Positions 4,350-35,954 of a stretch of 64,000 nucleotides of DNA are shown piece after piece. Numbering within the stretch: the first letter of the stretch is position 1; every line of letters begins with the position of its first letter. The notes beneath the pieces were generated by a model that saw only the letters and a program-made list of their open reading frames with translations, made no database searches and was not told the origin of the DNA. The stretch is from Tubulanus polymorphus (Eukaryota; Nemertea; Palaeonemertea; Tubulaniformes; Tubulanidae), in the NCBI RefSeq assembly GCF_964204645.1, contig NC_134029.1, positions 8,112,850-8,176,849 of the forward strand, read 5' to 3'. A program made the position numbers and the translations under genes.

Positions 4350-7300
4350 CATATATATATAAACAAACGATACAAGCATTTATCCGAAATTTGAATATGT
4401 AAACGATATTCGGAATACAATGCGTTCTGACCGGAAATAAGACTTAATTATGGAATAAGAAGCATAACTTAAGCAGTTCGTGTAGACACGTTTCTGAGGT
4501 AGTAACTGTTTAATCGGAAAATAATGGATACGTAGTCGATTATATACAAGGACGAAAAGCGATATTTTATGGATACGCGTTCGAAGTAGGCTATTCAGTT
4601 TAAAGAGAAAAGGCTGTTTTTTGGAACCGGTGGAGTTGTATTGATTTTGATTCCAGAATCAACCTGATTCTTGTGCGGGAGAGGTATTATTTTTTTGTCT
4701 GAGATATGAGATACTGTACGTCTTACTTTACTTTTTTGGATTTCTATATACGTCAAGAATATAATCTGTTCTGTACTTTTCACAAAGGTTGGCAATAATT
4801 TCTGGAGGAATGTGCATTATAACTAATTTACTTAATATCATTTATGTCTTGATATTATAGCATTATTTTCTCATTTCATCATAACAAGTTTTTCCATTTT
4901 CGGTATTCGTGCTCGATTTTTTATTTCAAACCTTGCTACGGATGAATTATATTTTTAATGGTATTTTCCATACTGCACAATACAACAGATGGTTTTTAGG
5001 AGTAACAATAGTAATATAGTATCATTGTTTGATTTAATTCAAAAACATGGCGCCAAAAATGCAATATGTTCAAATTGAAAGTAGATCAAGACCTAGTTTT
5101 ATGTCTAGGGTCAAGAATAAGTTCATATTCAATGATATTCAGGGTAGAATTTAACTCGCAACTATATATGAAACTGACTCTTCTGCTAGATCGGAGGGCC
5201 ATCAGACATCGTTTAAAAGATAATGATAATAATAATGATATTTATTTCTTATATTCTGCACTCCGTTAACATTTCAGCGTGGTTTACAAATATACAAGGC
5301 TATAAAAACAAATTAAAACGGTCAATTAGAATATTGCCTAAAGAGAAATGTTTTCAGCTCAGTTGAAAAAAGTCTGTAATGAAAGATTACAAACCCTAAT
5401 GACCTTTGGTTATTCATTTCAAGGAATTATTGTCTTAAGTTCTTAGAAATATGGTAATAAGGTTGGTAATAGAAGGTACATATCGTCATAGTGGCCACAG
5501 ATTGAGTTGAGACATCAGCGGGTGTGGTCTTTATGTGCAGTTTGCGTATACATATATATCTACATCTGCAGACCAGACAGACAGATGAATCATGAAATGT
5601 ATATGTTCGTTGTAATCGATAGAGATGGCTGTTTTAATTGTATAGTTAATGCCTATACGCGACGATAGCATGTACGGATGATTAATGATAGGTTTGTCTA
5701 TTGGAAAATTTGTCAGAATCGGAAGTTAAGTTGACGTCGTTTTTCATTTCATATACAGTAGACTCGATCCGCTCTTGTTGGATCCAATCAACTCAGATAA
5801 CCGTTCAACGCAGATGTTTTTTGAAATATTTTTTGTGACTTCATATATGAAATACATAACATCCAACTAGGATATCACTCAAGTCAGACACATGTTTACG
5901 GTCCCAAAAGACCCGACTTGAGCGGAGGCTATACTACTGTATACCGTAATTCAATTTCAATAGGTAATGACCATTCAGGAAAAGTCATTCCTTGACCATC
6001 TTCCCACGGCAGGGATTGATGGCATTGTTACACTTAGCCATGGCAAGATACCCTGCCGCACTAGACCGGGTGCGCAGGTACATGCACAGCTTTGTCGCAA
6101 GAAAACTCTCTGCCGGTTGTATAAACGCTAAATGAAAAAAGCCAGACTGAAATAGAATGGGATTTCTGATTGGCTTATAATGACATCATCAAAGCTGCGC
6201 ATGTAGCTGTGCACCCGGTCTAATGTGGCAGGGTTTCGTACCGTGGCGATTAGTCTCAATGCCATCAGGTTCGAATCCCTGCCGGGGGAGGGGGAGGATA
6301 GTCCCTGACTTCCTCTACAAGTGTTAAATTTGAAATAACCTCAAAACTTGGTTTTACTCGAGAGAAAGTTTTATACCCCAATTTGAATAGTCAAATTTGA
6401 ATTGTCTGAAATCAAACAATGACACACTTCTTTATGTTTTTGAAAACAGACAATTTGTGCACTACTCGTATAAATTGATGCGAATTGAGTTGTTAGTGAG
6501 AAATAAGATTTTAATTGAGATTTAGATTACTCTCACGTGTGGCATATGATATTAAGTGTTTCTTGGCATTTGATTGTTGTAAAGCGCGTGCTTGGATTAT
6601 TTTATGATTTGAGGTGATTTATGAATGCAGAGCACAGCAGGTGTAGAAAAGTCTATGAGAGATCTTTCATGATGCTGTGGAAGTTCCATAAAACTTGAAA
6701 AAACTTGGTTTTACTCGAGAGAAAGTTTTATACCCCAATTTGAATAGTCAAATTTGAATTGTCTGAAATCAAACAATGACACACTTCTTTATGTTTTTGA
6801 AAACAGACAATTTGTGCACTGCTCGTATAAATTGATGCGAATTGAGTTGTTAGTGAGAAATAAGATTTTAATTGAGATTTAGATTACTCTCACGTGTGGC
6901 ATATGATATTAAGTGTTTCTTGGCATTTGATTGTTGTAAAGCGCGTGCTTGGGTTATTTTATGATTTGAGGTGATTTATGAATGCAGAGCACAGCAGGTG
7001 TAGAAAAGTCTATGAGAGATCTTTCATGATGCTGTGGAAGTTCCATGCCTTTCCACGGAGAAAATCCCTACTAACTCAAGCTGTTACAATATTAAGTTGT
7101 ACAAATAGGGAATGTTAAATATCTATGTCGCAACTGGATTCAATCCTTTTAGAATGGGGTCTACAGGGGAGAGTATGTTTACACGTGAATCCAGGTTTCT
7201 CTGATGATGGAGTTTAGTTTCTGTAACTGCCAGAAAATCAATGTGGGTTTCTACTTATCAAAAACAACTGGCATGATGCTACTGCATGATGCTACTGGGT

Positions 7301-10300
7301 TCTATAAAGTGACAATTATGCCTTATTAAAAACCAATTTTGTAATTGATATGATATATTTGCCGCTTATGATCTGCCCAAATCTTTCATATTATCACGTA
7401 TTTTGAAACTTTATTTAGAGAAACTTTGTCAAATTCTTCAGGACTTTTTGATTCTCGAGCTACCATTCCGAGACCCGTATACAACATATCCAAAAAGCAA
7501 TGGGTAATGCATGGTAATTTTGGAGTTGCCTCATGCATTCAGACTGATTCGATTCTGAACTCAAAAACTTTTTTCGCCTATGGCTTGTATAAGAAATATT
7601 ATGTATTTTTGCTTGTATGAATATAGATTCCCGTATAAATCAATGTTAGAACCAGTGAGGTTTAGCTATAAATTCCGGGTTGCTTCTATTTGGTTAAATT
7701 TCGAGGAAACTTTTTCTTTCAGGGCCACCTAACTTTCTACACAGCTCCCAGCGTTAACTGTACTTATAACCACATTTCCGCCGATAGCGTTCAGCCGCCA
7801 TTGATTCCGAACGAAACCGATATCAAAACCGTGCCCAAAACATCTACGCCGCTTAAGAAATCGGCGGAAAGCGACGGGAATCAACGTCATGTCGCCGATT
7901 CGTTGTCGTCATCGGAGAAACCTTCCTGGACAAATCGCAGCGATTCCGGTTACAGCTCGCGGGGATCCTGGTGGAACGACTGGCAACAATCGACGATTCG
8001 CGAAAACCCGATCTATCACTCATTAGAGCAGACGGATTCGTTGGATCGTCGCGGTGACGATGATAAAATCTCCATCCGCGAAGAATCGCAAACGCTGAAA
8101 CCGACTTCGATAGCGGATGATAACGGTATGGGCGTCGTAGTCGGCAAACAGGCGAGACCGGTTTATGAAATCGGCAACGGTCTAGAGCGTAAACAAGTTT
8201 ATGACGGAACGATCGCGCCCGAAGAGACGAGCCCGAACAAGTTCGGTATCAATTTCGGTCGACGAGAAAGTCGCGACGAAAAATACCGAACGACGCCGAA
8301 TTCGTGGAAACCGCGTGACGTTGTTAGTTCGGCGCAATGCCACCAGGTGGCCATATCACAAACGTCGGACAACGAGGATGATTTCAGCGGTACGATAATC
8401 ATCGATCATAATCCGTCGTCCGCGTCGCGATCTCGCGTGAAACGAAACAGCGTCGATTTGTACAAATGTCGTCGGCAATCGGGCCGCGATTTTACGAACT
8501 CAATTATCGCTCGTCCAGATGGTGCGGTTGAAAACACGCGATCGATAACAGCGACTCGAAATGATAAATCTCCCGCTGACAGTAATGGCGCTGGTACTGG
8601 TGCACGCCCGAAAGTACCAGCTGCGGCGTATGACCGCCGGAGGTCGTTGGAGAAAACAGCAGATGTCTCTCCCGGTCAATACAAGGCGAACGATGTCACG
8701 AATAAGGACGAAAAAGACGTTGTTATATTGCAGCGATTGCCGGGCGAAAAGTTAGGGATGGGCTTGCACATCGAAGGCGGCGAGGAGGACCTGACGAAGG
8801 TCACCGGCGTTTTCATCGAGAAGATCACGCCGGGCAGTCCGGCAGACGGTGCCACCGATAGCATGCTTAATCGGTTGAAAATCGGCGACGAGCTGATCGA
8901 GATAAACGGAATGCCGCTGCGCGAATTATCGCAGGCCGAAATTCTGTCCGTATTTCAGGAGTTACCGCTGCGAGTGATTTTAACGATTTATCGCGGAGGA
9001 TGCGCGGGTGCCGTGACCAATCGTGCTGCGGCGGCGATCTGCGATCGACGCGTCGTCCCCGAAAGTGAAACAGAAAGCGACAGCAGCAAAGCGGAAATGT
9101 CAGAGGACGACGAAGACGACGCGATCGTCAGCGATGTTTCGGCGACGGTTGCTCGACGCTCGAAATTATCGTCGGCAAGGTCGAGTCGTATCAGCAGTCG
9201 AGGAATACCGGACGGATTCAACAAACACGTCATCTTACTGCACAGAGACGTGAAAGAATCGTTAGGATTAAATGTCATTCCTAGTTACGGATCGACGAAA
9301 GGCTATTTTCAGGTAATTATGAAGTTCTGCATGTAGTGCTTTATCAAGAATTTACTCTTTACCGGGGTAAGTAGAATAATTGGAATTAGATTGGAATTGT
9401 AACTATAGTCTCCTAGAGCACCTAGTTCCTGGGGGTTTGATTTGACTCTTAAAAAATCAATAGTATATTCTCATTCATAATAAAATCAATCATCTCACGG
9501 CTGTGTAGCTGGATACGCTACTACCAAATGCAAATGGTTTACAGGATCGCGCTTGTATTTTAAAGGAATTTGAATCGGAATAACAAATTCTAGGATTTTG
9601 GTTTGCTAACTGAATACCAGTACTTTAATGTAATATAAACACAGTGTATCATTGATTATCATTAACCTGCTCTCTTGTCCTTCCGAAGGGTAGTTGAAAT
9701 TGCCAATTCACTGAACTGTACTATGAAGTTCTTTGTAAACAATAGCAAAATGGCTTGTTACCATATATTGATAAACTGCCTTCGTATCTTTGTTCCTTTA
9801 AGTGGTTTCTTACATTAAAAACAGGAGTAAAAAAACGAAAATTCCGATGAGCATGAATAAACTGGACTCCAGTTCAGTTGAGGCATCCCCTGGTTGAGAG
9901 TAGCATACTACTTTACGCGGCTTGTAAAGCTCCAAAATCTGTGTCCGCACTACACAAAATATGCAGCCATTTCAGTACAGTACCTTAATCAGGTTTCACT
10001 ACCGAATCACTTACCTCGCTTAATAAGCCCGGTATTTCAGTACCGTACTGAATAAGCCGCTCCAATAGGCCTCCAATAATTCAACCATGTGAACAGGTAT
10101 AAGTACTTTACTGAAGTCCTGGTGTGAACAGAGGTCACAATCCAGTACGATCCCGCTAGAATTGAAAATTTGAGATTTTCCTTGAAAGGAATTAAGGGAA
10201 AACTTTCTCAAAAGATGCAATTTAATTTAATTCGTTGCCAACATGGAAACTATTTCGAAAAGATAAGACAAGCGAGAAAATACTGTCATTGTAAGCATAT

Positions 10301-24201: not shown

Positions 24202-27200
24202 TTATAATCCGTCGTGATATTCCCATATGTCTTTTTCGTATCCTTCGTGAACGTGATTCAACAACACCGTGCGCCGACTTTCGCAATACCTGAAAATACG
24301 ATTTAAATAATGAACAATATCATTCGAATCGATTCATCGGTTTTTTTTTTCGCGACAATTAAGTGCTGGATCCGGTTCTGTAGTTTCTAGAAATTCAACA
24401 TTGAAAATGGACTCGTGCTAATCCTCGAGTCTCAGGATCTTGTACATCCTTGCTTGCTAGAGTTTGATTGCCTCACACTTACACAAACCCTGTCCACAGT
24501 TCCTTCTTCGCTACATTACACCACCCAAGATTTTTTGGATCGACAGGTTATGTATTAAACCAATCAAATGCGTTATTTTTCACCAGCAGGTTCGCTCTAT
24601 AAATACCAAGCATCCGATTGGCTAGATATATAGACTGGGTGCCTTGAAGTAGCAACCTTTCCACCAAAGATATCTTGGGCGGTGTAATAGACCATTGAAG
24701 GGTATGTGGCGAGTGTTTCTGTTGGCATATACTTCGGCGGAAGGCAATCAAACCCCGGCAAGCGAGGATGGTTCAGGAATGCTTCAACTTAGTCGAAAAA
24801 GTAAATCAGCATTTTCACATAAGTTTTGTGAAAACAGCGTCTCAGATGCGAAGGTTACCAAAACGAAAATAGGGATAAGGGAATGCTGCTGATGAGGTAG
24901 TTATCCAAAAGCTGAAACAATTTCCATAACATACACCGTAATTCTATGTAAGTCTTAAATGCCCAGTATGCATTCAATTTCACATCGAATTGAATATATA
25001 GTCTAGTCAATAGCAATTCATTAGGAAGAAGTATCTCCTCATGCAATACTTGCCTGTATTTGTCCTGTACTTTTTGTTTAATATCGACTAAAATATCCGA
25101 CGTAATATCTCTTTCTAGATATTCCGATAATTGTTCAGTGGCACATTCTAGATCTCTTTGATTTTCCTGCAATAAAAAAACCGTAGAACTCTTATTCATC
25201 GAAATATCAGTATCTTAGGAGACTCCGTCTGTGACGGGAGCCATTCGCCAAGAATTATAACGTGCCCACAAAAATATTCAAGCACAATACCCCAGTCACA
25301 TTGCAGCAAAGTGGACGTGAGCATGTATTTAAGACTTAAGAAGTATACGACACATACCTCAAAGATAATTGACTGATTATTTTTCCTCAAAAAGAATGCA
25401 AATACATAAGTATACATGAGCGTTTGTCGACATAAACACAGGACATCGACGGCTTTCTTCAGAAACTGTACTTCGATCCACGACATATTGTGCTGCTGCA
25501 TCTCTTCCATTTTCGTTTTTACCGATGCGTACAACTACAAGGCAAATCACATCTTAGTCAATTCCTTATTTTGAAGAGAGAGGGCCTCGTTGCAGAGTTC
25601 CGCCTTGATTAAAATTTCAAGGAAGTGTCTGCTTTCATATCCCAAATACCCGGTACTGTAGACTCCTCCTAAACCAGTACTGTTTATCTCAGTAACCATT
25701 AATTTGGTGGTTATGTAAGCAAATTTTCATCCTATACACTACCTAAACTTTGGTAACCACCTAGTTGGGTAAAAAAAAATCCTGGTCCCAACTGTACTGA
25801 TTTGGGTGTAGTTTACTTTACAGCTACAAACATTTCTTATTGCACATTTCTCAAAATTGAAGGAGTTTTTAGAGTTTTGGGCATTTTGATCACATCAAAG
25901 GAGTTTCAGGCACCTTTAAAAGCATTTTATGTTCAGAAGGAGTTTTTAAGGAATCAAGGAGTTGTAGGGCTTTGCACGAGTACAGGCTATAATCTAGAAA
26001 GGTATAGCCGATAAACACAGTATATTTGTGAGACTTTTAGCGATATTCGATTGAAGTAGTTTTGATCCAGTTAAGATGCTTCATAAACAAAAGAGCTTCG
26101 ACTTGGAAGAACTTAAGATGGAACTGGTTAAGGTTAACAGGTCGAACTGGTTAAGGTTAAAAGGTCGAAATATGGCAAAGGAGCATTTTTTCCATATCCA
26201 ATACCAAATAAACATACAAGCATGGGTAATAATGTCATTATCTGCAGTATACGTATCAATATTGCATATGGTATACTCACTTCTGTCTGATACTATTAGG
26301 ATTGTTAATTCATAAAATAGATTAGCGGTACCAGCAGAATGTGTATACCACAGAATGGATACATCGTCGATTTTTAACTGGTCCCCAAAGAGACCCAATA
26401 GCTGTGGTTTAATGTACCGAACACAAACCAGCCGATATAATGGATACAAAGTACCAAAGGATTTGATCGAATGAAGTTCTACTGCATTATCATCTATCTT
26501 TGCCGAGTAAATGGTAATAAAGAGACCATATATCCACTGTTTTGGGAGAGATAAGAGATATATTACTTCCCTTTGAAGGAACATTTCGTATCGAGACATT
26601 TTCTTACCTTATGTTCAAACTTTAAGCTTTGCATATGGTTAAGATATCGGTTACAGTAAAACAGATACCTCTGTAATGCTGACCGCGATTTCTGGAAAAA
26701 AGCAAAATAAACAATATTAAGAACAAGTTTAATCATGTAGTTATATATTCGTCATAGAATAGCTTTTCTGACTTTTTCCCTGCATTGAAGAATTCAATCA
26801 ATCAATCAACACAGTCAAATACATAAGACATAAACAAAAACTGTTTGATTTTATGCACAATCTAGCAATCTCCCTGACTTAACTGTTTATAAAATTCACT
26901 GACTTTTTTAGAGAAAAGAATATTCCCTGATTTTCCCCCGGATTTCCAGGCATTATTGGCCACCCCTTTGCAGTTTACATTTATGTCCTGTCCGCATCTA
27001 GACACTTTCTGTCCATCACGCATCATTTGCACGGAAATTTTTTGCCCCGTTTGTATTTTGTAACAGGAATATCAGAAAAGTATACATCATTACCTCTTGA
27101 GCATCTCTTGCTTTCTTGGCTTCGTCTTCGTCGTATCGGTTACAGTTGTACCACGAGGAGCCGTGCGGTTCCCACGGACCGAGACACACCCAGCAGAAAT

Positions 27201-30200
27201 CAGCTTTACAATGTTGATTCTTACACACCATATGATTACAGCCGCCGTCTTTCTCTATCGTAACGTGGCACTTCGGACACTCCTGGAACGCGATTGAATT
27301 ATCTGTTTAGTTTTTATTTGATAAACCTGTCTATTATTAGCAGTTTGATCCAGATTTTGATCCAAATTTTGACCTAATGCAGACATTATTTATTATTGTC
27401 CACCTATGGATAAATATATGTCAAATATGTTTAATCGGGATTTCTCATAAACAGGATTAATTTCCATCGGTCGCAAATGATCCGAATAAAGTGGATTCTT
27501 GAGTACACCTCAAATGTGGATCATTTTACATTATTGTTGAGGACCTACTCTCACAGTAGAATGTTTCAGTTGCTAACATTGAGTAACGCGTTTAACGAAA
27601 ATCCAATCGATTTTTCAACAGAAATGTCCGATGTTCTTTGAAGTTGATGACCGGCCTAGAATGTGGTCACAAGTTTTGCACTCACTGTTGGGCGGAATAT
27701 CTAACGACGAAAATCATGCACGAAGGAATGGGACAGGTCAGTAAAACTGCAAATGGGTGCATAGATTGACTGTGACACAATCTTATTCTTCATCGATGGT
27801 GTGTAAGTTTTCTATATCAGTTGCTAAAGCAGTTTATGTCGGTTGCGACTAAGACATTTGCATCGGCTCGCAGAATGTTGGAACATGTGGCACCCATTGG
27901 CAATTGCAAGGGCGTATAAGTCAATGCGTCTTTGTGAGTTGAATTAGAAACCAAATTTAGTGTTAAAGATGGAAATTTTGCTTACAAAACCACTTGCAGT
28001 TTACAGTACTGATTTAGGAGGACAGTTTACCCAAATTCAAGGATATCCAAGGACCTTGAAAAACATTATTGGTTAAGAAGGAGTTTTTCAAGGAATCAAG
28101 GAGTTGTAGGGACCCTGCAAATGCAGTTCTGGGTGCACATCATTAGTAAGAGATATTTCATGCAGACGCAGCTAAGCTTTACGATGTACACTGATAGAGG
28201 TGGCGACTGCTAGAAGTCAAATTGTTAATCCCTAAAACTAATATCAAGAATGAAACTCGCCTTTGTGTTCGCTGCAATCCAGTTGGAGGTTTCGCTGTCG
28301 TCGTCGCATTTCTTGATCCATTTTTTAAGCCATCGACATTTAACAGGATCGTGCCAGTTTTCCCCACAAGAGAAGCTGCAACAAAAACGAAAATCACAAA
28401 TTACCACAAACTTTCAGTCAGAAGGGCATATGTAAGATTAAAATAAGCCAAGTTAATTGCATTTTTCATTGATATAGAACTCGTCGAATGTTTAATTTAC
28501 GCGTCTCAAGTTCTAGTTACAGTAAACCAGAAGTAAATCGGATCGGGGTAAGTCTGAAATACGCTAAAATAGATCTAGAACCGTTGGACGACATGTGTAG
28601 CCCCAGCCTCTGCAGTCATTTTAGAAGATAGATTGATATATGGATCGGACATATTTCGCTCACGTTTCTTTTTTTAATTCATAGTTTTCATTGAAAAGCT
28701 TCTTAAAAATCAAACTTTCTCAAAGTCAAGTTTTTCTCAAGAGAAAATCATCCAGTCCCAAAATACTTTTTCTATGGTAGCCTTTCCTTTTCTATGTCTA
28801 TGACTGTACATACCAGAATGTGTAGCCACATAAGCACGTCACTGGTTTGGCATCATAGTAAGCCACTTTGATAGCATTTCCGCAATCAGGAGCAGGACAC
28901 CAACGCATCAATCGATTGCACTAAAACAAACAAATCAGAACATTAATAACCTGGTACACAAAACGATTTAAGTCGACCCGGTAATTAGGTACCCGTTTCA
29001 CAAAATGAGTAATCACCACAAAAGCTTATTAAGTGTATTCCGCATCAAACCAATCAAAATTCCACCGAGTCCAGACTTCCTGGTAGATAAGATAGGAACA
29101 AGGCCCGATGTTTATATGCATCACCTTTATCAATATTCACAGAACAGAATTCTATATAGAAGTAGTAGTAATAGCAGAAGTAGTAATATTGTGGGCCAAT
29201 TCAGCCTTCATCGACCTCTGGGCAGTTTCTGGTGTACGGTTAGACATTTACTATAACATATAAATATTGATCTAGTAAGTTACTTAATTACGATCCCCCT
29301 GTTGGGCGAGACTCAGCTGTGGATCTGCGGAAACCCTAAATGACTCAATCCATTTTACTGATTAAATCTAGCCACTCAGGTTAGATAGACTACCCTACCG
29401 ACATGCACCACGAATATTCCATTCTTTGACATGTCAATTCCAAGACCTATCATGGCTATGAGCCGTGTAATTTCTACATTATACCAGTATCAATCTCACC
29501 TCTACGAAGCTGTTCGTAATGAAGTGTTGATATTTCAATTTTACTTTCGATTCTGTGATTAGCTTCCTATAAATGAAAAAACGGAGAGGTCATTTATAGC
29601 GATTATATCTGCATCAGACAGGGGATATAGGACTAATTGAGACTCTTGCACAGCCGTGATTCTTGTCCAAAGAAGTGGTCTTAAAATCTAAGACTGGTTT
29701 CAAAAGCTATTAGAAGATAAGCTTTAACGCAAAATAGGGTATCATAAATCATGACTGGCCTTTACATCTGTGCAACTCAGAACCCAGGATTTGCTGGCTT
29801 AATGAAATGAGTTTCATTTACTATGTTACTTACATAACTGTAGCGTCATCCACTAAAATGTCACAACCATGAGCAGCACAGGAAATAGTCTGAAAAACAA
29901 CAATATTAAATTTTGCTTCAGTAAAGAGAGCAGACGGCTTGCAACGAGTGAGTGCCGCAATATATATCGGTAGAGGCCGAAGAGAGTTTAGAAATTACAG
30001 ATCAGTCATTCCTGGATTCAAGGAGTTATCAAGGAGAAAATTTCAAGGAAGTTTTTGCGTCTCTTTATTAGTCCCAAAACTGTCCTCCTAAATCAGTACT
30101 GTAAACTGCAAGTGGTTTTGTAAGCAAAATTTCCATCTTTAACACTAAATTTGGTTTCTAATTCAACTCGTCGATTCTCTGAGACTGCAGTGACAATTGC

Positions 30201-32780
30201 GTCACAAAGACGCATCGACTTATACGCCCTTGCAATTGCCAATGGGTGCCACATGTTCCAACATTCTGCGAGCCGATGCAAATGTCTTAGTCGCAACCGA
30301 CATAAACTGCTTTAGCAACTGATATAGAAAACTTACACACCATCGATGAAGAATAAGATTGTGTCACAGTCAATCTATGCACCCATTCGCAGTTTTACTG
30401 ACCTGTCCCATTCCTTCGTGCATGATTTTCGTCGTTAGATATTCCGCCCAACAGTGAGTGCAAAACTTGTGACCACATTCTAGGCCGGTCATCAACTTCA
30501 AAGAACATCGGACATTTCTGATGAAAAATCGAATGGATTTTCGTTAAACGCGTTACTCAATGTTAGCAAGAAGAACGAACAACTTACAGAAACCGAGTAG
30601 TTTAAATAGCATATTTCACACATCGTCTCTTGAATGGAAGATGCAGAAGCCGTCCGTAATTTCTGAAAAAGAAGCCAATACTTACAACTTTCAGAACTAA
30701 TTGCCTAAAGCTCATGAAATACTTGTTCTTTCATCTGCAATAAACACTTAAAGTCAGACTTTTTAAATCAAGGATTGCACATAATCTCGGTCATTTTTCG
30801 TTGAAAGCTTAACACTCAAAACTCTAACCGAGGAGACCTAAATACAACGGGTTGACCATATATGTGCTAAGGTTTACGTTCATAAGACGGAAGAGGCTTC
30901 AGCTCTTAAGCTTTCCAGAACAAATTTAGCTCAGCGGTCAACTATAGGGTACCTGGCTTCATGCTTCATGCCGCCGCCACTACGTCCTTTCATCATCATC
31001 ATCATCATCGTCACAATCCGGGGAGTATACTCGAGTTATACCCGGTAACCTGAGTACAACCGGGCAGCCCCAGGCAGTCCCAACAATGGGTAACGTTATC
31101 CCCGAGTATACTAGGGCTCAGCCTGCGCATGCTTATTGTTTTAATCAGTTTTTACATTCTATTTTGCCGCGATCACTCACTTTCGTGCTGCCTTTGCATT
31201 TCTTGTACGGGCTTATCACATGTGCTTCGGCGAATAACTTATCTTGATCCCCATCCCAATATCTGAAAAAAATTATTCACTGATTTCACTACGTCGAGGC
31301 CTACTTGATCGATATATCATTTCATGGTGAACATTTTTGTTCACCATGTTTCTGCAAGCATATAGGCCTACTTCATTATCGGGGTCATCTAGTGAACCTA
31401 CCGTTCCATTAACTTCTCTTTGTCCCATCTGAAGTGATTTAGTAGAATTCTAGTAGTCGTGGCAGGAATCTGAAAATATTATGCCAAACTATAACATGTC
31501 TTTCATATTATATGATCACTGCTCGACAAAGCACTAGACAAAAAGAAACTTGGTGCAAAAGGCTACAGGTCCAATTTTTCTTGCATTGGTGGTTCTTAGG
31601 GGAGGCATACATATACCTACATCAAGTGTTCTCCATATGCTGGAATTTTGAAGGGGGTGCATTCAATCATTGTTAAGTGTGATTTTATGGCAGCTGAGGT
31701 AGCAAGGATTTTGATACCCCCCAAAAAAAGAAAAATAAAGCTAAATTCTTGTGTTATCTTTTTCTCACATTAGATCAATATACCTCAAACCAATTAATCA
31801 GCATTGAAAGAATATTGATATGCACTCTGATATGCACATTTTTTAAGGGGTGGTTGATTTGAGGGTTGGATGTACAAATGAAAGGGGTGGATGTCCCTCT
31901 AAAACCTGTTGCGGAGAACTCTGATATCTTCATCTAGATATTTGATTGCGTTCAAAATTTACCTTAAACACGATACCAGTGTGACCCATATCAATTCAAT
32001 TCAACCCGAATCATGGTCACTGTTCAACGAAGTCCAATTCAATTCACTTCAATACTTTATTGATAGTTATTTCGTAAGTTGTCGTAGGGTTACTTAATTA
32101 GCAATAAAACATAGGCCTATTCTTCTAACAAATTTATTTAAATCTGACGTTAAGTATTCTTGTCAAGATATTAGCTGGACATCGCGATGATGTTATGCAA
32201 TGAAATTCAAATTTCTTTTTTTAACTCAGTTGGGAGGGCATAGTTGCAAATGTCGGATCAACAAAAATTCGACCAAAATCTGAAATCAGAGCACTAGAAC
32301 ACACATCAGTGTTTGCTAAACTTTCTAAAACAATTTTCTACGGACAGACGAATGGATAAAAAAGTGATCATAATAATAGCCCAAAGCAAAAGGGCTCAAT
32401 AGTATGTGAGCTTTTGGGGGTAACGTAGGCTAGCCTACGCCAAGCCAATGTCCTTACAATCTCGAGCCCCAAAAGGTTTGGTTGACTGATGTCAAATGGC
32501 GCTGAAAACTAATAGGCCTACGAGCAAGAAATATTCTTTGTTAGCCTAATTTGATTAATAATACCTCGACTATTTGGTTAACCTCCTTTATACAATCGAC
32601 CATGTGTTGCACAATTTCCTCGGGCGTAAGAACTAAAAAGTGAAAATCATCGCAGTCTTGGTGTTTGCCATCCCTCGACGGCTCGCTTTCCATGCCCAAT
32701 TCTACGAATTGATCATCGTCTTCGTCGCTCGATTCGGCCCCGGAATCTTCCTCGTACAACATATCGTCGTCCAAGTCCAT
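24202..32780 (-). CDS. ARIH1: ARIH1, ariadne-1 RBR E3 ubiquitin ligase (complete, 14 exons)
   Basis: Exons in transcript order: 32780-32565, 31469-31402, 31262-31181, 30662-30588, 30495-30403, 29889-29834, 29566-29500, 28920-28814, 28375-28261, 27282-27094, 26691-26608, 25534-25358, 25166-25054, 24289-24202. All phases agree and give 509 residues plus stop. An acidic N-terminus ([14 protein letters not shown]) and a UBA-like segment ([19 protein letters not shown]) precede RING1 (C137, C140, C154, H156, C159, C162, C182, C187). Next come the IBR (from [13 protein letters not shown] at 220) and RING2 with the catalytic Cys predicted at residue 308 in DGGCNHMVC. The Ariadne domain runs from about 357 to the end. 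The enzyme takes ubiquitin from UBE2L3-type E2s onto the catalytic Cys and works with neddylated cullin-RING ligases. It is about 48 residues shorter than the human protein, mainly lacking the vertebrate glycine-rich N-terminal run. Introns 9 and 13 begin with GC. The acceptor of exon 5 (GAAG|TTGATG) was chosen because it alone keeps frame and family length. Confidence 0.97.
25655..25818. mobile_element. Foldback MITE with GTAGACT-type inverted ends
   Basis: The left end GTAGACTCCTCCTAAACC (from 25658) is mirrored at the right by GATTTGGGTGTAGTTTAC. It sits in the ARIH1 intron between the exons at 26608 and 25534. A related element lies at 55391-55563. Half of the same element forms the inner ends of the ARIH1 inverted duplication (about 27985-28030 and 30077-30160). 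Flanking motifs such as AAGGAATCAAGGAGTTGTAGGG recur near 25945, 28090 and, diverged, 40245, so the full repeat is probably longer than the core given here. Confidence 0.6.
26121..26166. repeat. Two-copy 23-bp tandem repeat
   Basis: The unit GAACTGGTTAAGGTTAACAG (plus GTC) occurs twice in direct succession with one mismatch, in an ARIH1 intron. No function is apparent. Confidence 0.8.
27574..28028 (+). repeat. Inverted copy of ARIH1 exon 5 and flanking introns (arm 1)
   Basis: This stretch, inside ARIH1 intron 9 and read on the plus strand, repeats the minus-strand sequence of 30077-30567. It includes an exact copy of the 93-base exon 5 at 27644-27736 with its splice sites, still encoding the RING1 segment [13 protein letters not shown]. 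By eye the arms differ at about four positions plus one 34-base deletion here, where 30148-30186 has extra sequence. The copied exon is antisense to ARIH1, so it cannot be spliced into the ARIH1 mRNA. Confidence 0.95.
30077..30567 (-). repeat. Original arm of the ARIH1 inverted duplication (exon 5 region)
   Basis: This is the sense arm. It carries functional exon 5 (30403-30495), about 70 bases of intron 4 and about 325 bases of intron 5. Similarity to arm 1 ends abruptly at about 30567 on the outside, in intron 4 before exon 4. On the inside it ends at about 30077, within a repeat half that resembles the element at 25655-25818. Confidence 0.93.
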
Positions 32781-35272
32781 TTCGCGACTTGTCGAGCGTT
32801 ACACGTACGAGAAGTTATATCGACAAAAAACTGAGTATCGAATAAAGTCGGTGTCAAAATTTCCAGCTGAAACTCTCTTCACTCAGAGACGACGGTAACT
32901 TCGTGTTTATGTCGATGACGTCATCTTCGTGCCCTTCCGTGACGTTTGGCGAAGCGTTTTATTTTGATAGCATCGTTGAATTTCCTGAACCTTTAGCTTA
33001 AATACGCGTAAATAAATTAGTCATTAGGTAGAAATAGAGAGTGACATGAGCTTTAACACAGATAAGAACGCGAAAAAGTTTCGTGACGTCACCTTTATTA
33101 TACGATGTTGGGCAATACCCCGACCAACAGATGGCAGCATCATACGGTTATTCACTTGCCGCAACTGCTCACGGTGGGCTAGGCTGCACTAAACCCGAAA
33201 TTTGTATCATTTGGTGCTAGTGACATATTCCAGTTTATCAGAAATTCTAATAAGATCTTATATTTTACATACATTTTTTATGAATATAGTCAATAACATT
33301 CGGATTAGGATTAAGATCCGAATTAAACAGGTCTCTATTGCAAAATGTGGCAATCAAAGCAAAGATTTGTTTTATTACTTCTCAGCACTCAAGCAAATTA
33401 ATTGCAATTTCGATGATGGAATTTAAATCAATTTGTCTCCAAGCAGGCCAACCTAATTTTGTGGACGCATACAATCAAGCATTTCCCTGCGCCTATAAAG
33501 TATAAGTCCTGTTCTCATTCCTTTCCGATACTTATAGGTTCTACAGGAGCTTAAAAGACCAAATTCGATCAAACGATGCAAAATAATGTGTCAATGAGAA
33601 TATACAGAGATAGATTTATTATTAATACGTACAATTCATACATGATACATTCATGTAGATAACTCACAATCTAACCTTTCTTTTTTTGTCAATTCACACT
33701 GCAACAAACTGCATTATACATCATTTACATTCGCAACCACACTAATGATTGAAGTCGTCCAACCATGAATTAATTCATAAAATTGTTATACTAGAACAGA
33801 CACCACTGAACAAGAGGACACTTTACACTGGATGAAAACTATAAAGGCACGCTGTACTAATTCAATTTATTGTTAATCGCTTTTTTTCTCGATAGAACCA
33901 AAAAGTGTACTTACAAGTCAGAAGTGATTCAATTACTATACATGACAAACTACATAGTTGGACTACTTCAAAGAAATACATACTATATAACCATCATGAA
34001 ATTCTCTCGATTTTCTCACACAAAGATGGTTTAAAAGGAATTATTTTGGCTTTCAAACCAGTATTTTTGACACTGACAGTGATTGTTCCCTCAACCTTAA
34101 CCTGGATATATAAATTGATAAAGTAACCTATGGATATGTTGTGTTTGCCTATAAGAATTTATACTTTAAAGATTATTCTAATACAGGCTTAATTATCAAC
34201 AACTGCACGATGCATACTAGTACATTACTGTATATATTTTGTAGATATTATTATACTAGCCCCAAATAATTTGTTGTATGTAACCATAGTTTACTGTACT
34301 TAAAGTATCAAACTACTCAAGAATGGCTCAAGATCATAGTGATTGAAACACTTCAGTAAAGCTGACAAGTAGTGATAGCCTTGAAAGTTGCCAAGGATAC
34401 TCATTTGGAAGAATTCTACTATCATTCCAAAACTTGCCCAATTAACTCTAAATCTGCGGTATTATTTCGGAACAAAAGCATACAAGGTATTAAAATTGAC
34501 AATAAGGTTCCGTACAATCTTGCCCGGCTACACTTGTACGTTATAGACTAAGGCTATCTTATTTCGAATAGAATTTGAGTGAAATCAATAAGACTCGAAA
34601 AATAAGAAATCATGATATGAACACATCATGCAGTACATAATATATATGCCGGATGAAAATACAATAAACTCCACCTTACGTCATTAGAACTGGGTGACCA
34701 CAATTCATACACCTCTAAATTACATGCGTTCTTGTGGTAAAAGCATAACTTTCAACCCAAAGTAAAGCAGTAAGCTAGCCAAGAATTCTTATAGGACTTT
34801 TGACTTCCCGCATGAAATGAAGATTGTTAAGTTCTGATGAGAGGCATGTAGAACATATAACAACAATGGGAAAAATGCAGGAGCGACATATATGCCATTT
34901 CCCTTAGTTTTCCAGAGTTTTATCAAAATTCGCTTTTGTCTTCCACGAGAGAAATCAGTTCTGTTTTCCAGAATCGTGGTCACCAGCATTGGTACTGTTA
35001 ACGTATCACCGAGTTGAGAAACAGGGGAAAAGGGTTTTTTCTTTAAAAAATCAGTCTTACTAAAATTCATTGACTTGAGCAGTTTACTGGAGCAAGGAGG
35101 AATCCACTGTATAATGTTCCTCATCCATTTGATTCTAATGTAACCTTAAAATCATTAAAGCAGAATGACGGGAATGATAAAATTTGTCAAACATAACACG
35201 ATTTAAAGATCAGACGCAGTGAGTATCGACGATCTCCAGACTTCTAGGAGGCAGCAGGTAGTTTTATTACAG

Positions 35273-35753
<481 letters not shown>

Positions 35754-35954
35754 AGATTGCAGTACACTGAGAAAAAAGTAACCTTTTTATCAGCAGATAC
35801 CTCCATAATATAAGGAACAAAGAAAATACACCATGAGAAAGTGGTAGGTAGCAAGCATGATGTTAGTTTTGCAATGCTCCATTTGACTATATACAGAGGA
35901 ACTTCGTTATCAAATGAACTCAAATTACTAACCTAAAATTTCATACCAAATAGG

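Follow-up and report, generated by a model that had tools for sequence, protein, structure and literature searches.

What does it mean for a gene to carry, backwards and in a later intron, a nearly perfect copy of one of its own exons? The ARIH1 locus of Tubulanus polymorphus raises this question, and with it 2 others, i.e. how such a copy arose and what the resulting pair of complementary arms might do to the transcript. We address these within a stretch of 64,000 nucleotides, hereafter the window, and by searching the assembly from which it comes.

An inverted copy of exon 5 within intron 9 of ARIH1

The gene lies on the reverse strand of the window and its open frame is intact. The search for its exons was guided by a human sequence, and the match of the 509-aa product to PDB chains named E3 ubiquitin-protein ligase ARIH1 (E = 2.6e-266) is independent of that sequence. 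The Pfam families found over their cut-offs in the product are UBA_ARI1, IBR, IBR_1, IBR_2, and Ariadne, while a RING match across exon 5, which we take to be part of RING1, reaches 26.9 bits, slightly below the cut-off of 27. The parts of the gene that concern us are as follows:

24202..32780, reverse strand: ARIH1 coding exons 1–14
30403..30495, reverse strand: ARIH1 exon 5
27283..28260, reverse strand: ARIH1 intron 9, 978 nt, starting with GC and ending with AG, of which 459 nt are the inverted copy
28261..29889, reverse strand: exons 6–9 (56 + 67 + 107 + 115 = 345 nt, in frame) with introns 6–8, located between the complementary arms

GC instead of GT starts 2 of the ARIH1 introns, namely intron 9 (at 28260, GCGAGT) and intron 13 (at 25053, GCAAGT), and the inverted copy lies in the first of these.

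Comparison of the window with itself reveals 2 inverted blocks. The longer pairs 27570-27937 with 30202-30569 (368 bp, 4 mismatches), and the other pairs 27936-28028 with 30077-30169 (93 bp, identical throughout). Two bases fall in both blocks, the placement of the gap being ambiguous, which gives 459 aligned bases in total. Over this length, the copy (27570-28028) and its donor (30077-30569) are separated by 4 substitutions, at 30533/27606, 30521/27618, 30388/27751, and 30216/27923 (donor/copy), and by a single 34-bp gap, the 34 bp being found in the donor arm and missing from the copy. The spacer separating the arms measures 2048 bases, and BLAST returns E = 0.0 for the arm pair inside the window. 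The arms are made up as follows:

27570..28028, forward strand: inverted copy arm inside ARIH1 intron 9, running from 74 nt of intron 4 through exon 5 into the beginning of intron 5
27644..27736, forward strand: copy of exon 5, 93/93 bases identical, with the acceptor (..TTTGAAG) and donor (GTCAGT) splice sites retained
30077..30569, reverse strand: donor (original) arm, spanning exon 5 with the last part of intron 4 before it and the first part of intron 5 after it, including 34 bp missing from the copy

The donor tract thus takes in the entire 93-nt exon 5 together with 74 nt of intron 4 on one side and 326 nt of intron 5 on the other. A preliminary description of this DNA had reported a near-identical inverted copy of exon 5 and its flanks in intron 9, with the exon matching base for base and its splice sites kept, and our analysis bears this out. 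The arms also lie where that description had placed them, although their outer edges shift by 4 and 2 bases, to 27570 and 30569.

Searched against the 267.8-Mb assembly (77 contigs), the stretch 27570-27935 of the copy has 2 matching places, on opposite strands. Because it matches these 2 places, the arm pair is neither a chance similarity nor, as far as this search shows, a dispersed repeat, and we accordingly reject a dispersed-repeat origin for the whole arm. Dispersed-element sequence is confined to its inner ~90 bp. What the locus holds is, therefore, an inverted single-copy tract beside its own source, as in a local inverted duplication. An Rfam search over the window finds no family at gathering score.

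A dispersed element adjoins the inner edge of the copy

An assembly search with 26900-31400 as the query, of which the best 40 candidates were scored, recovers the 2 arms and many places that match 28020-28118 or 29996-30102, with the second piece extending to about 30165 at lower identity. By hand count among these best 40 candidates, all 20 listed places of the 29996 type have the 28020 type adjoining, always in the order 29996 type (5') then 28020 type (3') and 82–294 bp apart. We refer to the dispersed element to which these pieces belong as E.

Eight copies of E, ~270–500 bp each, were examined in full (L004, L006, L007, L008, and L012–L015). The 3' end is exactly GTAGGGACCCTG in 4 of the 8 (L006, L013, L014, and L015) and altered in the others, L004 being the most degraded, and the 5' end is CAGGGTCCCTAC or a close variant of it in most. 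Based on these 2 ends, E looks like a dispersed, non-autonomous terminal-inverted-repeat element. By visual inspection, only L012 and L013 show putative 6-bp target-site duplications. At the ARIH1 locus, the 5' and 3' pieces of E are 1.9 kb apart and in reversed order compared with the listed genomic copies:

28020..28117, forward strand: 3' end of an E, ending in GTAGGGACCCTG, head-on to the copy arm within GGACAGTTT
29996..30165, forward strand: 5' half of an intron-5 E, distinct from the first and more diverged, spanning the inner edge of the donor at 30077

The E 3' end beside the copy is 93% identical to its best relative (L011), and its terminus at 28117 is intact. The inner end of the copy, the reverse complement of E 5'-half sequence, meets this 3' end head-on. 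In the donor arm, the E sequence continues through 30077 as it does in other genomic copies of the element, while the head-on join was not found in any of the 8 copies examined in full. It follows that the copy in intron 9 is the derived, rearranged arm.

The sequence of the donor at the join is GGACAGTTT. With L011, the closest relative of the intron-9 E, used as a stand-in for the ancestral element at this position, the 2 partners agree at 8 of 9 bases, 6 of which are exact and consecutive. In the same register, L012 and L013 also agree at 8/9 bases (5 exact and consecutive), and L014 and L015 at 7/9 and 6/9, respectively, with a longest exact run of 3 in each. Random pairings with L011 (n = 200,000) produce runs of at least 6 in 0.2% of cases and of at least 5 in 0.7%, although the test was chosen post hoc. 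The junction between the copy and E at a short microhomology was not part of the preliminary description, and it points to how the copy originated.

The other end of the copy is different. No microhomology is visible at the left junction (27569/27570), and the left flank (27290-27569) yields no 5' half of E, the score of 20 being equalled or bettered by 262 of 300 shuffles. Another dispersed repeat, 71–87% alike in the listed places, occupies ~27356-27499 of this flank and ends ~70 bp from the copy.

These features bear on whether the inverted arm is an assembly fault, produced by a mis-join, by a chimeric read, or by the collapse of a second haplotype. Among the best 40 candidates, there is no further assembly match to the arm or to the surrounding 4.5 kb over their unique parts and, as such, no second copy of the locus for comparison, which would be compatible with a fault. 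Hairpin-read artefacts, however, produce exact palindromes without a spacer of this kind, whereas the arms seen here have 4 substitutions and a 34-bp gap between them, lie 2048 bp apart, and have an inner junction that carries repair-like microhomology inside an element. Because of these differences, this distance, and this junction, we regard an assembly fault as unlikely.

Age and frequency of the duplication

The arms diverge by 0.87% (4/459; 95% Poisson interval 0.24–2.2%), which supports a recent event, one of the readings offered in the preliminary description. This value is inside the range of within-species diversity in many animals with large populations and, for this reason, the copy, which would be young judging by its divergence, may be polymorphic. 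The base-for-base identity of the exon carries no weight, as all 4 differences would fall outside the exon by chance with P = 0.40. Functional constraint on the exon copy was considered on the same grounds and is unsupported, the identity being expected by chance.

A low divergence could also hide an older inverted duplication that has been homogenised by gene conversion, and possibly retained because its hairpin, editing, or circular RNA is useful. Gene conversion can act between inverted arms at a distance of about 2 kb, and the exons enclosed by the arms, 6–9, form a stop-free 345-nt unit. The formation of circular RNA from complementary flanking introns is, moreover, well supported (PMC8330042). 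On the other hand, the exon gives no sign of being more alike than the intron (P = 0.40), the 34-bp gap is still present rather than converted away, and no feature of the sequence demands selection. We thus find homogenisation of an older duplication improbable.

To place the pair in its genomic background, we analyzed 20 stretches of 10 kb (20/20, 200 kb), located on contigs C2, C3, and C6–C11 (the window is on C5) and drawn from a frame of contigs C1–C11 in which C6–C11 were restricted to the first 13.9–16.4 Mb. At thresholds of 60 bp and 90% identity, the 200-kb sample contains a single inverted pair (L029), which is part of a multicopy element. Single-copy inverted pairs occur in 0 of these 20 stretches, a small sample, and the window contains one. 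Within the limits of such a sample, a single-copy inverted pair does not look commonplace in this genome.

The L029 pair (7082-7800 and 9275-9996) is 722 bp long and 98.3% identical, with 1.5 kb between its arms. Elsewhere, the first ~80 bp of the same element are found as tight inverted pairs that resemble foldback derivatives.

Proposed origin of the copy

Local inverted duplication as such is ordinary, given that newborn gene duplicates in C. elegans are often adjacent and inverted, according to the background given in PMC2728529. For the ARIH1 copy, we think that a recent local inverted duplication probably occurred by microhomology-guided template switching, during the fill-in of a break in or next to the intron-9 E. 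A break at this element is favored because the copy ends at the intron-9 E and the copied tract begins inside the intron-5 E.

As observed today, intron 9 holds the 3' end of one E, and intron 5, ~2 kb away, holds the 5' half of another. The intron-9 E would have broken and lost its 5' part. To judge from the junction, the new strand would then have left the 3' end of E within GGxCAGTTT and switched to the inverted intron-5 template; copying would have run from intron 5 across exon 5 into the last part of intron 4, before the product was joined to the far side at 27569/27570. Subsequently, 34 bp would have been lost from the copy (or gained by the donor), and the 4 substitutions would have arisen.

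Captures by terminal-inverted-repeat elements in 100 animal genomes offer a comparison, with 160 of 281 single captures located <15 kb from their source, mostly <5 kb, and microhomology at a breakpoint in 190 of the 281 (67.6%) (Tan et al. 2021, PMC8277862). The median loss at the break in those cases is 4.6% of element length (PMC8277862), and at ARIH1 the whole 5' part of E is gone, far beyond the loss that is typical at gap-filled breaks. It also counts against a break in E that one junction only lies at the element, with no 5' half of E left of the copy. Furthermore, a break in E is traceless in the sequence, and plain fork stalling followed by template switching would leave a very similar sequence.

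The last of these, known as FoSTeS/MMBIR, requires no break and uses E as chance microhomology only. It is a near rival, as it differs from a break in E in the trigger only, and it accommodates both the single junction in E and a loss of E far above that of typical gap-filling cases. FoSTeS/MMBIR has been invoked in DMD patients for an exon-bearing inverted segment with 2 bp of microhomology per junction and for insertions with 2–6 bp (PMC4303224). Under fork switching, however, a breakpoint in the intron-9 E together with a tract that starts in the intron-5 E is a coincidence, and a break explains it better. We therefore view fork stalling as possible but rather doubtful as the trigger, and continue to favor the fill-in of a break at E.

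The copy shares several features with Pack-TIR elements, as outlined by Tan et al. (2021, PMC8277862). In both, a terminal-inverted-repeat element is joined to a nearby single-copy fragment with microhomology at the element–filler junction (exact runs of 6 with L011, 5 with L012/L013, and 3 with L014/L015), and the source is on the same chromosome, mostly at <5 kb (2048 bp here). Pack-TIRs differ in having both element ends flanking the fragment, whereas at ARIH1 one end is left, i.e. the 3' end is present and no 5' half is found in 27290-27569. By the rule given there, the parental copy has no TIR elements in its flanking 100 bp, which excludes a source such as this one, as the donor arm starts inside another E (PMC8277862). 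Under these rules the ARIH1 copy is not a Pack-TIR, as it lacks one element end and its source lies next to an E, though it works like one.

The rearrangements in DMD resemble the ARIH1 locus in that an inverted exon-bearing segment lies within a gene, with short microhomology at a junction. As described in PMC4303224, the DMD case is an inversion with deletions in a patient, whereas at ARIH1 the original is kept, the gene is intact, and the copy is seen in a genome assembly. Among the open-licence PMC matches listed, none deals with an exon copied in reverse inside the gene it belongs to, as far as titles and the starts of abstracts indicate, while exon inversions are present (e.g. PMC7005217). 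As a fresh case with a readable junction, the locus suggests that a small DNA transposon may lead to a backward exon copy in the same gene.

Predicted consequences for ARIH1 transcripts

The copy is antisense within the ARIH1 transcript and therefore cannot serve as an extra exon there. What it can do is pair: RNAduplex predicts an arm duplex of 456 pairs at -851 kcal/mol, vs -124 and -89 kcal/mol for the single arms. The preliminary description had stated that every ARIH1 pre-mRNA can form a hairpin of ~450 bp, and the pairing is indeed possible, but "every" is too strong. Specifically, transcription reaches the copy ~2.4 kb downstream of exon 5, which may leave time for splicing of introns 4 and 5 before the arms pair, and the copy may be polymorphic.

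Over its first 326 nt, intron 5 is complementary to intron 9, save for the 34-nt gap. The arms thus provide complementary stretches in introns 5 and 9 that flank exons 6–9, similar to the reverse complementary matches that drive circular RNAs; for example, intronic matches of 7 and 13 nt promote back-splicing and skipping in zip-2 of C. elegans (PMC8330042). The ARIH1 arm differs from the introns described there in holding a whole exon with both splice sites (PMC8330042). By drawing the ends of exons 6 and 9 towards each other, the layout of the arms is predicted to favor back-splicing or skipping of exons 6–9, an outcome that the preliminary description does not mention, as much as burial of exon 5.

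Long RNA duplexes are edited by ADARs. When both arms are paired in one pre-mRNA, the arrangement should lead, at a low level, to back-splicing or skipping of exons 6–9 and to A-to-I editing of the duplex. Skipping of either exon 5 or exons 6–9 would keep the frame, because these amount to 31 codons and to 345 nt in frame, respectively. A strong RNA effect is harder to reconcile with the locus, as introns 4 and 5 may be gone by the time the copy is transcribed and an allele that ruins a conserved gene would be expected to disappear, and the allele is likely neutral or mildly harmful. It is conceivable, but highly unlikely, that pairing of the arms sets the ratio of full-length, in-frame skipped (without exon 5 or exons 6–9), and circular exon 6–9 ARIH1, i.e. 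that a splice regulator was born in a single repair event.

The hairpin may also be compared with hpRNA loci that give rise to endo-siRNAs, which similarly contain an inverted repeat homologous to a protein-coding exon that could be diced (PMC10317233). As described there, such loci form transcripts of their own, and their siRNAs match another gene, whereas the ARIH1 hairpin would lie in its own pre-mRNA and be partly spliced away (PMC10317233).

If the locus is polymorphic, its 2 alleles represent a natural test of what a ~450-bp exon hairpin does to splicing, back-splicing, and editing. Recombination between the inverted arms could, in addition, flip exons 6–9 and thereby break ARIH1.

Other repeats in the window and the genome

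Elsewhere in the window, a 347-bp tandem duplication (6343-7046; 99.4% identity, 10-bp spacer) is found at one place in the assembly and lies upstream of a PDZ-domain open frame (7690-9336). A very long TA-rich simple repeat, which reads as (IY)n on both strands, occupies 35219-35820. Large tandem arrays with shifts of ~68, 118, 190, and 380 bp are present in at least 4 of the 20 sampled 10-kb stretches:

L022:3731-6387: tandem array
L023:1-2760: tandem array
L024:7893-10000: tandem array
L020:983-3363: tandem array
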